The notes under the pieces: generated by a model
What the model saw: the letters and a program-made list of their open reading frames with translations, nothing else
What the model was told of the DNA's origin: nothing
Database searches by the model: none
Shown: positions 17,144 through 33,106 of the stretch, in pieces
Position numbering within the stretch: the first letter of the stretch is position 1
Layout of the letters: the number at the start of each line of letters is the position of its first letter
Assembly: GCA_021731165.1 (NCBI GenBank)
Contig: JAKFXY010000020.1
Coordinates: forward strand, 4,992-48,798
Source of the DNA: Acidobacteriota bacterium
GTDB lineage: Bacteria; Acidobacteriota; Vicinamibacteria; Vicinamibacterales; UBA2999
DNA length: 43,807 nucleotides
Reading direction: 5' to 3'
Translations under genes and position numbers: made by a program

Positions 17144-18022
17144 ATGACTCGTTTCAACGGCATCACCCTCCTACGCATCGCGTGTTTCGTGCTGCTGGCC
17201 GCAATCGCCGGTGGGTGCAACCGCGGGCCAGAGCCGAGGAAGTACGAGCTGAAAGGGCAGATCCTGGCCATCCAGCCCGAGCGGCAGGAGCTGCTCGTGA
17301 AGCACGAGGACATCGCAGGCTTCATGCCCGCCATGACCATGCCCTACAAGGTGTCGGATGCGGCGCTGCTGGCCGGCAAGGAGCCTGGCGATCTCATCAC
17401 CGCCACGCTCGTCGTCGGTGAAACCGAGGCGCACCTGTCCACGCTGACGAAGACCGGCCACGCGGCGATCGAAGTACCGCCGACGCAGCCCGAAGTGTCC
17501 GCCCTGGAGATGGTGCAGGAGGGCAAGCCGGTCCCGGACGCTCCCCTCTTCGATGAAGACGGCAAGCCGCGTCCGCTCGCCTCCTACCGGGGCCACCGCG
17601 TCGCGCTCACCTTCATCTACACGCGCTGCCCGGACGCGGAGTTCTGTCCCCTCATGAACCAGAACTTTCTCGCGGTTCAGAAGATCATCGCGAGCACGCC
17701 CGAGCTCTCTGACGTGCAGCTCGTCTCGATCAGCTTCGACCCGGAGTTCGACACCCCTGCCGTGCTGAAGGCGCAGGCGCAGAGACTCAAGGCGGACCCC
17801 CTGCGCTGGCATTTCGTCACGGCCCCGGCGGCCGCAATCGGGAAGTTCGCCTCGCTCTTCGGCGTGACCGTCACGAGCAACGGCACCCCGACGCTGATTC
17901 ACAATCTCGGAACGGCGGTGATTGACCCGGACGGACGTCTCGTGAAGCTGTACTCGACCAACCAGTGGACTCCCGCTGAACTCGTTGCCCAACTCAAAGC
18001 GGCCCCCGCTCCCGCACGCTGA
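17144..18022 (+). CDS. SCO1/SenC family protein with N-terminal CusF-like copper-binding domain, lipoprotein signal
   Basis: LLAAIAGGCNRGPEP lipobox; KYELKGQILAIQPERQELLVKHEDIAGFMPAMTMPYKV (CusF-like); ALTFIYTRCPDAEFCPLMNQNF; TPTLIHNLGTAVIDPDGRLV. Confidence 0.9.
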   Translation: MTRFNGITLLRIACFVLLAAIAGGCNRGPEPRKYELKGQILAIQPERQELLVKHEDIAGFMPAMTMPYKVSDAALLAGKEPGDLITATLVVGETEAHLSTLTKTGHAAIEVPPTQPEVSALEMVQEGKPVPDAPLFDEDGKPRPLASYRGHRVALTFIYTRCPDAEFCPLMNQNFLAVQKIIASTPELSDVQLVSISFDPEFDTPAVLKAQAQRLKADPLRWHFVTAPAAAIGKFASLFGVTVTSNGTPTLIHNLGTAVIDPDGRLVKLYSTNQWTPAELVAQLKAAPAPAR

Positions 18023-20052: not shown

Positions 20053-20739
20053 CTACAACCCTTCTCCGGTGACCTTCGGCTGATCCAGCAGGGCGATGAT
20101 CTCCTTCTCGAATTGCTCGCGAGTCCCGATCCCGGAGTGCTTCTTCGCGATCCGGGCGTCTCGGCCGATGATGACCGATACCGGGATGCCCCACAGCGGA
20201 CCGAACGCGTCCTGCACATCCTCGCGCCCATTGCCGACGAGCACCGGGTAGTTGATCTTGTACTGGGCAGCATAGGGCCTCAGCTTTTCGACCGGGTCGT
20301 CTACCGAGAAACCCAGAACCACCAGGTCGTCGGCGTACTTCGTTTGAAGCTCGACCAGAGCGGGAATCTCCGCCCGGCACGGCCCGCACCACGTGGCCCA
20401 GAAGTTCAAGAGGATGATCTTTCCCTTGAAGGACGCCAGCTTCACACTCACGCCGTTCATGTCCTTGAGCGTGAAGTTGAGCGGCGCCTCCTTCCCGGTG
20501 ACGGCCGCGTCGTTGGGATCGCTTGTCGCGATGGCCAGCCCATCCGCCGGCGGCGGCGGCGCGTCCTCCTCCACGCCCGAACCGGGGGAGAGCATCATGA
20601 GCAGGATGATGGCCACGGCCACGATGCCCATCGCGGCAAAAGCGCCGGCGCGGCTCATTCGCCGTTCTGGGAGGGGCTCGGGCGGCTCCGGCGAATCACC
20701 CCGGCTGCCATTCGCGAATCCACGATCGCTATTCGCCAT
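20053..20739 (-). CDS. TlpA-like membrane-anchored thioredoxin family protein
   Basis: FKGKIILLNFWATWCGPCRAEIPALVELQTKY; N-terminal TM; alternative ATG at 20658 (MSRAGAFAAMGIVAV). Confidence 0.9.
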   Translation of the reverse strand: MANSDRGFANGSRGDSPEPPEPLPERRMSRAGAFAAMGIVAVAIILLMMLSPGSGVEEDAPPPPADGLAIATSDPNDAAVTGKEAPLNFTLKDMNGVSVKLASFKGKIILLNFWATWCGPCRAEIPALVELQTKYADDLVVLGFSVDDPVEKLRPYAAQYKINYPVLVGNGREDVQDAFGPLWGIPVSVIIGRDARIAKKHSGIGTREQFEKEIIALLDQPKVTGEGL

Positions 20740-20743
20740 TGCT

Positions 20744-21595
20744 CTAATGCGCCTCCTGCCGTACGTAGCTGGCTACATTGGCGAGGTCCCCGCCGGTCGC
20801 CGAGGATACCATCACGTAGGTGTTCGACCCGCGCGACCAAATACGAGCGCGATGACCGAGCGATGTAACGTCGGCATCGGCTCGGGCCACACCTTCAAGG
20901 ATGAAGAGCGAGACATCCTGGCCGTGCGCTCGGTACATCACGTGGGGAATTCGGCCGTCGGCATAGAGGCACCTTCGCGCGCCAACCAATCCTAACCCTA
21001 CGGGCCCCGAAGAGGGCGGCACGTGGAGATCCCAGCCGTAGCGCGCCCGCAGCATGGCTTCAACCTGCCCGGCATCGGCCGTGGCGCCCTGTGGCGGGAA
21101 ACCGCGGAAGCACTTCATGTGATCCGCGGTGAGCTGTGCCGCAAGCAGGGTATCGGAATGTTGTGTGGCGACCGCCACCATCGCGGCAGCGGTGAGGGCG
21201 ACAAACAGCACGGCCAGCCCGACGGGCGCGAAACGAGAGATCCAACCGGTGGCGTGCACGAGCGCCAGCCGGTGCTCGCGCGCCAGCGCCTCGCACCGGG
21301 TCCGTAGTCCAGGCGGCAGGGTGGTCTCGCTGTCGGAGGAACGCAGCCGCTGGGCGCAGCCACGCAGCACGGTGCGTCCGGCCTGGCCATCCGCGGCCGC
21401 GCCACGGCACGGCGGACAGGCCGCCAGGTGATCGTCAACGTGCCCGCGCTCATCCGGCGGCAGGTTACCGTCGACGTATTGCGTTATCCGCTCGGCGACT
21501 CGCCGACAGTCCTCTATCGCCACGGTAGACCTCTGCCCTCTGACGTTGGACCCCTGCCTGACTCGGAACGGTTCATCGTCGCCCTCCTGCCTCAA
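20744..21595 (-). CDS. ZAS-type anti-sigma factor with TM and extracytoplasmic domain
   Basis: DCRRVAERITQYVDGNLPPDERGHVDDHLAACPPC (Hx3Cx2C) then TM FAPVGLAVLFVALTAAAMVAVA and C-terminal domain; GTG start at 21533 (VAIEDCRRV) avoids overlap with the sigma gene. Confidence 0.85.
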   Translation of the reverse strand: MRQEGDDEPFRVRQGSNVRGQRSTVAIEDCRRVAERITQYVDGNLPPDERGHVDDHLAACPPCRGAAADGQAGRTVLRGCAQRLRSSDSETTLPPGLRTRCEALAREHRLALVHATGWISRFAPVGLAVLFVALTAAAMVAVATQHSDTLLAAQLTADHMKCFRGFPPQGATADAGQVEAMLRARYGWDLHVPPSSGPVGLGLVGARRCLYADGRIPHVMYRAHGQDVSLFILEGVARADADVTSLGHRARIWSRGSNTYVMVSSATGGDLANVASYVRQEAH

Positions 21596-22187
21596 CGGTG
21601 GCCCGAGCCATGCCGCGTCCTTCGCGCAGCCGCTCGAACAGGAGACGGCGGCCGCGCGAAATCCTCGACATCACCGTGCCAAGCGGCACGCCGAGCACTT
21701 CGGCGATCTCTCCGTAGGAGAACTCTTCAACGTCGCGCATCCAGACCGCCTCGCGGAACGCCTCGGGCAGCGCGTCCAGCGCAGCCTGCAGATCGACGTC
21801 GAGCGACTGTCGCAGCAGGATGCGCTCGGGCGTATCGAGTGCGGCGGGGCCGTCCGGCCGCGTGGCGGCCTGCTCCACACGGTCGCTGTCCACTTCCACC
21901 GTGTCCCGCGCGCGCCCCCGGCGTCGATTCCGCCACGTGTTGTGCAGAATGGCGTAGAGCCAGGCTCGCAGGTTGGTGCCCCGCTCGAAACGATTGGCAA
22001 AGCGGAGCGCCTTCACCACCGTATCCTGGACCAGGTCCTCCGCGTCCGCGCGGTTGCGCGTCAGTCGGAGCGACGTGGCGTATAGCGGTTCCAGAAAGCC
22101 GAGCACCTCCGACGCGAAAGCGTCCGCGCGAATCGGATCGGATGGCGGTCGGCGTCCAAGCATCAAGCGCTCGGGTCCTTGGGGCAT
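21573..22187 (-). CDS. ECF RNA polymerase sigma factor, SigR-like
   Basis: VLGFLEPLYATSLRLTRNRADAEDLVQDTVVKALRF..FERGTNLRAWLYAILHNTWRNRRR; sigma4 FSYGEIAEVLGVPLGTVMSRISRGRRLL; ATG 22163 is a likely alternative start. Confidence 0.93.
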   Translation of the reverse strand: MPQGPERLMLGRRPPSDPIRADAFASEVLGFLEPLYATSLRLTRNRADAEDLVQDTVVKALRFANRFERGTNLRAWLYAILHNTWRNRRRGRARDTVEVDSDRVEQAATRPDGPAALDTPERILLRQSLDVDLQAALDALPEAFREAVWMRDVEEFSYGEIAEVLGVPLGTVMSRISRGRRLLFERLREGRGMARATVEAGGRR

Positions 22188-22213
22188 AACCCCCGCGGCG
22201 ACCCGTTTATTCC
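22188..22213 (-). promoter_or_regulatory. Candidate ECF (SigR-type) promoter GGAAT-N18-GTT
   Basis: Minus strand: GGAAT (22213-22209), 18 nt, GTT (22190-22188), immediately upstream of the ECF sigma gene. Confidence 0.55.
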
Positions 22214-22470
22214 GTCCTCAAGTCTACGGCGGATGACGGCCCGCACGGACTCGTTGCCGCGGTTTCCGTCAATTCTGGCGCGACGCGAGGCGAGCCCATC
22301 GGTACGTCCTTTGCTGCCCCGCAACCGCGGCGGCTCATTGCGAGCGTTGAACGGCCGGCAGTATGATCGGCCTCCCATGGGCGCGGTGAATACCGCGGCC
22401 GGAATGACCGTCAGACCAGAGTGCCGGTGGTAATAAAACCCCTCGGCCCGTCTGCTAGGAGTAGAACGAC

Positions 22471-25400
22471 ATGAGCGACTGCACACGGCGCGGGACATGG
22501 CTCCCACTCGCTGTCGCCGCGCTGGCGGCCGCCATCGCGTCCGCACCGCTGCCGGCCTCGGCACAAACGCCCTATGTTCCCTACTTCGGGAAGAACCAGA
22601 TCCGCTACGACAACTTCCGGTGGCAGATCTACACCACGGATCATTTCGAGATCTACTACTACCCCGAGACCGAACAGCACCTGGAGCGCGTGGCCAGCTA
22701 TGCCGAGAGTGCCTACCAGCACATCAGCTCGGAGTTGCGTCACGATCTGGCCTTCAAGGTCCCGCTCATCGTCTTCAAGACGAGCAGCGAGTTCCAGACG
22801 CAGAACGTCATCCCGGGCGCGGCACAGGAGGGTGTCGGCGCCTTCGCCGAGCCGACTCGCCAGCGTATCGTGCTGCCGATTGACGATCCGCCCGATCTCC
22901 TCTACCGCCTGATCGTCCACGAGCTCACGCACCAGTTCGAGTTCGACATCATCCCGACCTCCCTCATCCGCCGCAGCGTGCCGCTGTGGGTCAACGAAGG
23001 GCTGTCCGACTACATGACGGGCATCTGGCAGCCGCTCGACCTGGCGTCGATCCGCGACGCCGCCGTGGCCGACATCATCCCGAAGATGAGCCGGATGGAC
23101 GAATACGGCAATTTCACGAACGTCCGCATGGTCTACAACCTGGGCCACGCGGTGTTCGAGTTCATCGAGTCACGCTGGGGCAAGGAAGGACTGCGGCAGT
23201 ATCTGTTCGCGCTGCGCAAGGCGGTGATCGGCGGTGGCGAGGACGCCTACATGGAGGCGCTGCGCCTCACGCCAGAGGAGTTCGACCAGCAGTTCGAGAA
23301 GTATCTGAAGGACCGCTTCAAGCCGTTCCGCGACAAGGAGCGGCCGTCGGACTACGGGCGCAACCTCGCACCGGACCCCGAGAAGTCGGCGTTCACGGCG
23401 GCGGTGTCGGTCGAACCGTCGCCGTCCGGAGATCTCATGGCCGTGGCCACCTTCAATCGGAAGGACCGCGAGCTCGACTTCGTGCTCGCCTCGGCCAAGG
23501 ACGGCTCGGTCATCCGCAACCTGACCAACGGCTTCGATCAGGACAAGGGCTTCGAGTTCATCGTGCAGCCTGGCGGCCGCTTCAATACGGTGCCCTGGAT
23601 GTCCTGGTCGCCGACCGGAGACCGCCTCGCCTACTTCGTGCGCACGGAGAAGTCGCGCACGCTCATCATGCAGAACGTCCTCAACCGCGATATCGAACAA
23701 CGGATTGTGATGCGGTCCGTGGACGATCCCGAGTCGCCGGACATCTCACCCGACGGACGCCAGGTGGCGTTCGCAGCGCTGCGGAGCGGCGTCGGCGACA
23801 TCTTCACTGTCAATCTCCAGAGCGGAGAGGTGACGAACCTGACGAAGGACAACTTCGGCGACTCGGGCCCGACCTGGTCGCCCGACGGCCGATCCATCGT
23901 CTACATCGCGCGCGTCAGCGGCAACGAGAAGCTGTTCCGCATCGACGTGGCCAGCGGCGTCAAGACGCAGCTCACCTTCGGCACGCACGACGACAGCGCC
24001 GCGCAGTTCATCGACGCCGACACGCTCGTGTTCTCGTCAACCGCCACCGACCCGAGCAAGTCGATCGAACCCGATGTCGCACGCAACGGCAACATCTACA
24101 ACATCTGGACGCTCGGCCTGAAGAACGGTGAGCTGCGCCAGTACACGGATGTCGCGGTGAGCAACGTGTCTCCGGTGCTGCTCCGCGAGGGCGGCAGTTC
24201 CTCGCGCATCGCGTTCGTCAGCACGTACAAGGGCGAGTACGAACTGCACACCCTCGACCGGAAGGAGGCCATCGTCACGGCGGCGTCGGCCGACTTCGGC
24301 GCGCCGGGCCCCATCATCGACTTCCAGGCTCCGCTCGCACACATGCTGCTGCCCGACAAGAAACGGAAGAAGGGATCGTTCGAGAAGATGTTCCTCGACG
24401 GACGCCCACCGGTGAACGTCGGCGTCACGAGCGGCGGCGACGTCTTTGGCGGTACCGCGGTCGCATTCAGCGACGTGCTGGGCGACAAGCAATTCAACCT
24501 GTACGCCGCGTCGATTTCGCAGTACCGCACTCTGGCGCTCTCGTACTCGAACATCGCGCGCCGCTTCAACTACATGTTCCAGGGCTTCTCGCAGACGTCG
24601 TTCTTCTACGGCAACCTCGAGAACGTCTTCTACGACCCGATTTACAGCGGCCAGATCGACAGGGACTTCGCGCTGGCGACACGCACCATCCGGGGTGGAA
24701 GCGCGTTCGGCATCTGGCCGTTCAACCGGTACCGGCGAATCGAGGTGTCTGGCGGTGTCATGCAGTACCGCGAGTCATTCAACGATCCGAGTCTCCAGCA
24801 GTACTCACAGGGGTACCAGCAGGAGCAGTTCGGCCGCCAGCTCTTCCAGTCTGGCACCTACGTGCCGTTGGGCGTCTCGCTCGTGCAGGAGACCACGGTG
24901 TTCCGCGAGTTCGGACCGCTCGCCGGCAACACGATGCGGCTTGCCTACGAGGTGTCGCCGAAGATCGGCAACACGCTCTCACGGCAGACAACCGACGTCG
25001 ATGCCAGGTACTACCTCCGTCTCGGCGGGTCAGGCCTGCTCGCGCTGCGGGCGAAGGGCTTCAAGAGCTGGGGCAGCTCCCCCGACTTCATGTACTTCGG
25101 GGGCAACTCGGAGCTGCGGGGGTACGACTACTTGTCCCTCATCGGATCGAAGGCCGGGTTCCTGAACGCCGAGCTGCGCTTTCCGCTCATCGAAGCCATG
25201 CTGACCCCGGTCGGGGTGCTTGGCGGAATTCGAGGCGTGCTGTTCGCCAACATGGGCGGAGGGAGCTTCGAGGGCCAGAAGGGTGCCGAGGGCGGGAACT
25301 ATAAGTGGTTCTCCACCTCGGCGGTTCGGTACACACCCGTCGACAGCTACACCACCGATGCGCTGGGGAACCAGATCGCGGTTCCGGGTACGCCGGTCAC

Positions 25401-25605
25401 TGTGTCGGGCCTTCGCCTCGTGGACGCCCGCGCCTCGTACGGCGTGGGGCTCGAGACCTTTGCGCTCGGCTTCCCCATCCATTTTGACTGGTCGTGGAAG
25501 ACGCTCCTGAACAAGGATTGGGAGGATGCGCTGTTCGCCGCCTACGGCGGAAGCAAAGAGTTCCGGAAACCGAAGTTCGCCGTCTGGATCGGCTACGACT
25601 TCTGA
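22471..25605 (+). CDS. Multidomain exported protein: peptidase MA-like metalloprotease + PD40 propeller + outer-membrane beta-barrel
   Basis: Signal peptide; LIVHELTHQFEFD (HExxH) and WVNEGLSDYMTG; PD40 motifs SPDGRQVAFAAL, SPDGRSIVYIAR; Bac_surface_Ag-like C-terminus ending in aromatic F (AVWIGYDF). Confidence 0.85.
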   Translation: MSDCTRRGTWLPLAVAALAAAIASAPLPASAQTPYVPYFGKNQIRYDNFRWQIYTTDHFEIYYYPETEQHLERVASYAESAYQHISSELRHDLAFKVPLIVFKTSSEFQTQNVIPGAAQEGVGAFAEPTRQRIVLPIDDPPDLLYRLIVHELTHQFEFDIIPTSLIRRSVPLWVNEGLSDYMTGIWQPLDLASIRDAAVADIIPKMSRMDEYGNFTNVRMVYNLGHAVFEFIESRWGKEGLRQYLFALRKAVIGGGEDAYMEALRLTPEEFDQQFEKYLKDRFKPFRDKERPSDYGRNLAPDPEKSAFTAAVSVEPSPSGDLMAVATFNRKDRELDFVLASAKDGSVIRNLTNGFDQDKGFEFIVQPGGRFNTVPWMSWSPTGDRLAYFVRTEKSRTLIMQNVLNRDIEQRIVMRSVDDPESPDISPDGRQVAFAALRSGVGDIFTVNLQSGEVTNLTKDNFGDSGPTWSPDGRSIVYIARVSGNEKLFRIDVASGVKTQLTFGTHDDSAAQFIDADTLVFSSTATDPSKSIEPDVARNGNIYNIWTLGLKNGELRQYTDVAVSNVSPVLLREGGSSSRIAFVSTYKGEYELHTLDRKEAIVTAASADFGAPGPIIDFQAPLAHMLLPDKKRKKGSFEKMFLDGRPPVNVGVTSGGDVFGGTAVAFSDVLGDKQFNLYAASISQYRTLALSYSNIARRFNYMFQGFSQTSFFYGNLENVFYDPIYSGQIDRDFALATRTIRGGSAFGIWPFNRYRRIEVSGGVMQYRESFNDPSLQQYSQGYQQEQFGRQLFQSGTYVPLGVSLVQETTVFREFGPLAGNTMRLAYEVSPKIGNTLSRQTTDVDARYYLRLGGSGLLALRAKGFKSWGSSPDFMYFGGNSELRGYDYLSLIGSKAGFLNAELRFPLIEAMLTPVGVLGGIRGVLFANMGGGSFEGQKGAEGGNYKWFSTSAVRYTPVDSYTTDALGNQIAVPGTPVTVSGLRLVDARASYGVGLETFALGFPIHFDWSWKTLLNKDWEDALFAAYGGSKEFRKPKFAVWIGYDF

Positions 25606-32713: not shown

Positions 32714-33106
32714 TTGATTCGTCGCCGTCAGTCGATCACGAGCTGGCTTGCGACGCTTCTCGTGACTGACGACAACCCGCCTTCAACCCTCCGAATTCCC
32801 GTGGCCGTCCTTCTCGGCCTCGCGGCGCCACCCATCGGCCTGCTGGCCTGGATCGCGTTGAGCGGCTCGCGCCGGAACGACTACCTGCGCTCACCGTGGG
32901 TTCGGACGGGCATGGCTCTCGGCATTGCCAGCGCGCTCCCCCTCCTCACCGTCGCCGGCGCGGCGGGACTGGGCCTCTGGCCTGATCCGAATCCCAATCC
33001 GATCGGCCTCGGGCTCCTGCTGTTCGCGGGCGGCGGCGTGGCGACGGTACTCATCGCGGCGGGGATCGTCCTCATCGGCAAGGGCGAACCGCGCACTCGA
33101 GAGTAG
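32714..33106 (+). CDS. Small multi-TM hypothetical membrane protein
   Basis: 130 aa with about three hydrophobic segments; TTG start. Confidence 0.5.
   Translation: MIRRRQSITSWLATLLVTDDNPPSTLRIPVAVLLGLAAPPIGLLAWIALSGSRRNDYLRSPWVRTGMALGIASALPLLTVAGAAGLGLWPDPNPNPIGLGLLLFAGGGVATVLIAAGIVLIGKGEPRTRE

Follow-up and report, generated by a model that had tools for sequence, protein, structure and literature searches.

A conserved SigH-type promoter motif ahead of an acidobacterial ECF sigma factor gene and its probable role in autoregulation

The closest described systems to the locus studied here are SigR-RsrA of Streptomyces and SigH-RshA of Mycobacterium and Corynebacterium (group ECF12), with which it shares the promoter consensus GGAAYR-N17/18-GTT. 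In SigR-RsrA and SigH-RshA, as here, the sigma factor gene is followed by that of a zinc anti-sigma factor whose CHCC ligands have an identical spacing, and there is a link to thioredoxin; the autoregulation of sigR would likewise have its parallel in the circuit proposed below. However, the sigma factor of our locus, sigma1, belongs to a separate acidobacterial clade, and whereas RsrA is a cytoplasmic protein of 105 aa, the anti-sigma factor here has a transmembrane (TM) helix and a predicted periplasmic cysteine domain. Moreover, the thioredoxin belongs to the envelope type (TlpA/ResA), and a housekeeping-like box precedes the ECF promoter, an order reversed from that of sigRp2/p1.

Membrane anti-sigma factors in which some 50 residues separate two conserved cysteines are also found in the ECF16 systems of Alphaproteobacteria (SigF-NrsF, EcfF-OsrA and BcrS-AbcS); the NrsF cysteines are at 131 and 181 (PMC3511200), those here at 138 and 185. 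YedY/MsrP belongs to the ECF16 regulon, and relatives of our genome have promoter sites ahead of MsrP. In contrast to the ECF16 sigma factors, sigma1 is SigH-like, and NrsF has six TM helices, whereas the protein here combines a single one with a zinc ASD domain. Finally, in about 100 of its residues, the predicted periplasmic domain is like part of RseB/MucB of the periplasmic stress sensors RseA-RseB and MucA-MucB, but only part of RseB is matched, and here the domain forms part of the anti-sigma factor itself and has invariant Cys and His residues. By analogy, the system may be likened to SigR-RsrA in its promoter and zinc switch and perhaps to NrsF on its periplasmic side. For this ECF system, present in most of the genomes sampled from an order that has been little studied, the locus offers a concrete promoter consensus and a corrected start codon. 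It also points to a testable putative two-sigma circuit and to a candidate sensor whose thiol sites would lie on both sides of the membrane. Features are listed in Table 1; the window is the whole stretch of DNA analysed (43,807 nt).

Table 1. Positions of the promoter elements and genes of the locus within the window
Feature	Position	Strand	Remarks
Possible weak housekeeping -10, TAGACT	22221-22226	-	Upstream of ECF promoter; TATACT/TACAAT in most relatives
-35 element GGAAT	22209-22213	-	GGAATA at 22208-22213, without variation in an alignment of 28 ortholog promoters
-10 element GTT	22188-22190	-	18 nt from GGAAT; spacer peaks at 18 and 19 only
Predicted start ATG	22185-22187	-	Abuts GTT; probably outside this promoter's transcript and probably not the start
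Expected transcription start	22180-22184	-	About 4-8 nt past GTT, from known ECF promoter geometry
ECF sigma factor sigma1	21573-22163	-	Corrected start; 196 aa, MLGRRPPSDP...; best NCBIfam TIGR02947 SigH_actino
Membrane-anchored zinc anti-sigma factor	20744-21523	-	C6-x25-H32-x3-C36-x2-C39; one predicted TM helix; predicted periplasmic domain
TlpA/ResA-type membrane-anchored thioredoxin (WCGPC)	20053-20739	-	Last gene of presumed operon

Promoter motif and start codon of sigma1

The letters of the minus strand read as the original prediction had it, with an exact GGAAT-N18-GTT at 22188-22213 (spacer 22208-22191) and an ATG directly after GTT. A single occurrence of this pattern is by itself unremarkable and proves nothing: dinucleotide shuffles give 0.51 exact matches per window, and of the two observed, the second (32774-32799), antisense within an ORF, looks like chance. 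The significance of the motif comes not from this count, but from its deep conservation in soil Acidobacteria. In 29 of 31 ECF orthologs of the same order, GGAAT-N18/19-GTT is found no more than 200 nt ahead of the conserved domain, against 0.11 expected from dinucleotide shuffles; when spacers of 12 to 25 nt were scanned in the 31 orthologs, 19 genes had N18, 10 had N19 and there was one other match. It might be argued that GGAAT-N18-GTT is a chance match in a G+C-rich genome, given the expectation for the window and the fact that most other sites of a looser pattern in the own genome fall within coding sequence, but positional conservation in 29 orthologs with a fixed spacer already refutes this, and we give the idea practically no credence. 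The ATG at 22187 touches GTT and is therefore upstream of any transcript start made by this promoter; very probably the predicted start is wrong and the real one is the next in-frame ATG, 22163, which lies 24 bases later and 24 nt past GTT. We base this on three features of the orthologs: those bearing the motif mostly have the ATG 22-35 nt past GTT (18 in two of family f1); in several relatives (L010, L023, L027 and L035) an in-frame stop between GTT and the corresponding ATG makes the longer protein impossible; and an N-terminus M(F/L/V)xRR, scored as a simple pattern, is found in about half (18 of 33), which the MLGRR at 22163 fits.

On the other hand, ATG 22187 could be a genuine alternative start on upstream housekeeping transcripts, giving an isoform longer by eight residues. 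Streptomyces has two such forms, SigR and SigR' (PMC5472188), and 19 of 30 orthologs (within L011-L043; 0.32 expected) have TATACT or TACAAT at 1-62 nt ahead of GGAAT, where it is a probable tandem housekeeping promoter. We nonetheless consider this start improbable: the residues ahead of MLGRR show no conservation among relatives, several of which have the in-frame stops mentioned above, no Shine-Dalgarno sequence stands at a normal distance ahead of 22187 in the window, and the window's own TAGACT box is weak and, by eye, without a clear -35. The preferred start at 22163 (MLGRRPPSDP) is also the one first proposed.

An alignment of 28 ortholog promoters reads GGAATA ... G(G/T)GTT, in which GGAATA and GNGTT are invariant. 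This consensus equals the experimentally refined one of M. tuberculosis SigH, GGAAYR-N17/18-GTT (PMC4803200), and, with the 29 conserved sites, supports the SigR-type promoter claimed at the outset. Among distant homologs from other phyla, 18 of 75 have the exact N18 motif (0.24 expected). The findings suggest that the SigR promoter code is common to different phyla. Strong homologs of the sigma1 protein (P0001) were found in 116 of the 149 genomes of its order, a count that is not of orthologs only, as its weaker matches belong to other ECF factors; the named relatives carrying them are Acidobacteriota. All of this evidence is sequence-based, and the genomes are mostly MAGs. Two orthologs, L016 and L026, have no ECF motif upstream, with TATACT still present, and an Rfam search of the window gave no matches.

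In a subclade of family f5 (L033, L036, L242, L243 and L245), the sigma1 frame has just one ATG upstream, and this is located within the promoter (GGAATAAATG...), directly after an in-frame TAA or, in L245, slightly further in. Sigma1-dependent transcripts could thus not make sigma1 from a usual codon there; they may skip it and mainly yield the anti-sigma factor and TlpA, for which the internal rshA promoter of C. glutamicum is a parallel (PMC3489674).

Sigma1, sigma2 and the reach of the motif

TIGR02947 is the best family for sigma1, with 152.7 bits against a curated cut-off of 251.55. Its closest match among solved structures is M. tuberculosis (Mtb) SigH, whose recognition helix GTVMSR it keeps. 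In a tree of 116 proteins, acidobacterial sigma1 forms a separate clade (support 99/100, with some long branches) that adjoins the actinobacterial SigR/SigH clade (100/99) without falling inside it. Because of this clade and the scores below cut-off for TIGR02947 and, in the anti-sigma factor, TIGR03988 (RsrA; 29.8 bits against 62.5), we regard sigma1 as SigR/SigH-like but not as a member of the SigR family. Recognition of GGAAY(R)-N17/18-GTT, the mark of the SigR/SigH type, is indicated by the conserved upstream motif. Our literature search found no description of this acidobacterial sigma/anti-sigma system.

GGAATA-N17/18-GTT occurs at 10 places in the own genome (~87% complete), 8 of which are in or against coding sequence on inspection of ORFs. 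Two contain GGAATAA, each 24 nt ahead of an ATG: that of sigma1 and that of a second ECF sigma gene, sigma2 (P0004, contig C114), the only other strong site. Patterns worked better than a profile search with the promoter model (R1), which returned the sigma1 site only. Across 40 family genomes, the strict pattern GGAATAA-N14/15-GKGTT was found at 33 places and the reversed pattern, a rough control only, at 1. These comprise 11 sigma1 sites (one a remnant in G063), 14 sigma2 sites and 8 others, namely a COG2907-type FAD oxidase (2), polyprenyl synthase (3), a DsbD N-terminal domain, fasciclin and one chance match. A strict match occurs in 95 of the order's 149 genomes (reversed pattern, 12); apart from sigma1, the matches are mostly ahead of sigma2, with others ahead of MsrP (NF003767, 477-480 bits), NadA, fasciclin and COG2907. 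A slightly looser pattern adds a DUF4331 gene, and relatives also add TlpA sites. As to the motif before thiol-redox genes, a check put forward with the original prediction, the only other strong site of the own genome was that of sigma2, and TlpA, DsbD and MsrP sites appeared in relatives. With only one other strong site, a broad thiol regulon like the large cytoplasmic one of SigR-RsrA is not seen in this ~87%-complete genome.

Sigma1 is the best candidate reader of the promoter, since it is most like Mtb SigH and has the GTVMSR helix in common with it. Somewhat unlikely, in our judgment, is a reading of this class of promoters by sigma2, or by both factors with overlapping specificity, and not by sigma1 alone. 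The motif stands before 25 of the 27 sigma2 genes of the family (another is truncated where its contig stops), and sigma2 with the motif persists in eight genomes where the profile did not find sigma1 (G072, G143, G129, G095, G146, G124, G132 and G062); in G008, sigma1 is broken. Against this, the SigH-like protein is sigma1 (153 bits for TIGR02947 versus 61 for sigma2), and no anti-sigma gene was found in the neighbourhood of sigma2, so that self-activation alone would be unrestrained. Furthermore, in G063, where sigma1 is deleted, sigma2 has no motif, which fits a cascade from sigma1 to sigma2. Within genomes, the -10 flanks of the two promoters agree slightly more than under permutation (22 versus 17.9 and 17 versus 12.9 of 35), which is not decisive. 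Shared specificity of sigma1 and sigma2 is possible.

A strict dependence of sigma2 on sigma1 is weakened by the genomes that have sigma2 and the motif but no sigma1, not all of which are easily explained by MAG gaps.

The spacers of sigma2 promoters often hold an inverted repeat, AAGACC-N5-GGTC (e.g., L126 1501-1526). The mean longest stem is 3.46, against a shuffled mean of 2.39 and maximum of 3.09, and an additional regulator might use the repeat as its operator.

Anti-sigma factor, operon and proposed circuit

Downstream of sigma1, a GTG start at 21523 opens the gene of a 259-aa zf-HC2 anti-sigma factor. C-x25-H-x3-C-x2-C is present in all orthologs checked, with spacing identical to that of the RsrA ligands Cys11, His37, Cys41 and Cys44 (PMC4960319). 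Anti-sigma factors of the RsrA type are small, soluble and cytoplasmic, in contrast to this larger protein with its hydrophobic helix; the six TM helices of NrsF/OsrA are likewise unmatched, as the predicted model has one. The AlphaFold model (mean pLDDT 88.9) comprises a helical ASD, one long hydrophobic helix and a C-terminal beta domain, of which ~100 residues resemble RseB/MucB (Foldseek E 5e-4, 14% identity). In an alignment of 25 sequences (A3), C77 is nearly invariant and a hydrophobic segment is conserved, past which D134, H135, C138, W164, R183, C185, G190, H194 and Y197 are invariant; the predicted topology would place C138 and C185 in the periplasm. DUF3379 matches 12 of the 25 members at E up to 1 (best 3e-7), and the literature search found no paper coupling this domain to sigma factors.

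The gene order is sigma1, zinc anti-sigma factor and TlpA/ResA-type thioredoxin. In G063 (L130 1500-2462), most of sigma1 and the anti-sigma gene have been lost through a deletion that joins the promoter and the first ~45 sigma1 codons to tlpA, which is kept.

From the motif position and the type of sigma factor, the operon is very probably autoregulated, as had been surmised at first. We are confident, on these sequence grounds, that the element is the autoregulatory promoter of the sigma/anti-sigma/TlpA operon, read by sigma1 in a feedback released by oxidation. We infer its reader, signal, feedback and direction as follows. RNA polymerase with sigma1 would read GGAATA-N17-GTT and start about 4-8 nt past GTT, and the first usable start on this mRNA would be ATG 22163. 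With the system at rest, sigma1 would be bound by the zinc domain of the membrane-anchored anti-sigma factor, until oxidation of cysteines in the cytoplasmic CHCC site, the periplasmic pair or both releases it. Free sigma1 would raise expression of its operon, whose periplasmic thioredoxin could bring back the reduced state; sigma1 would probably also activate the sigma2 gene and genes for repair of envelope oxidation. We counted against this circuit the two orthologs without the motif, the f5 start codon inside the promoter, the presence of a single other strong site in the own genome, and the at least eight genomes with a sigma2 motif and no sigma1 plus the one with a broken sigma1, given which another sigma factor, perhaps sigma2, may also be a reader.

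More speculatively, and with considerable doubt, the locus could represent an undescribed two-sigma system for envelope oxidation in Acidobacteriota. Its single-pass anti-sigma factor, with a cytoplasmic RsrA-type zinc switch and a periplasmic Cys/His site, would integrate redox on both sides of the membrane and control a SigR-like sigma factor that activates itself, an orphan sigma2 with the same promoter, and the repair genes TlpA, DsbD and MsrP.

On the plus strand, a divergent gene at 22471-25605 encodes a protein of 1044 aa that has TolB-like repeats and, at the C-terminus, a part resembling a beta-barrel. The intergenic control region may be common to it and the operon, and such a gene also adjoins the promoter in L130. 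About 2 kb beyond the tlpA gene, 17144-18022 (plus strand) encodes, by eye, a SCO1/SenC-like lipoprotein of thioredoxin fold.
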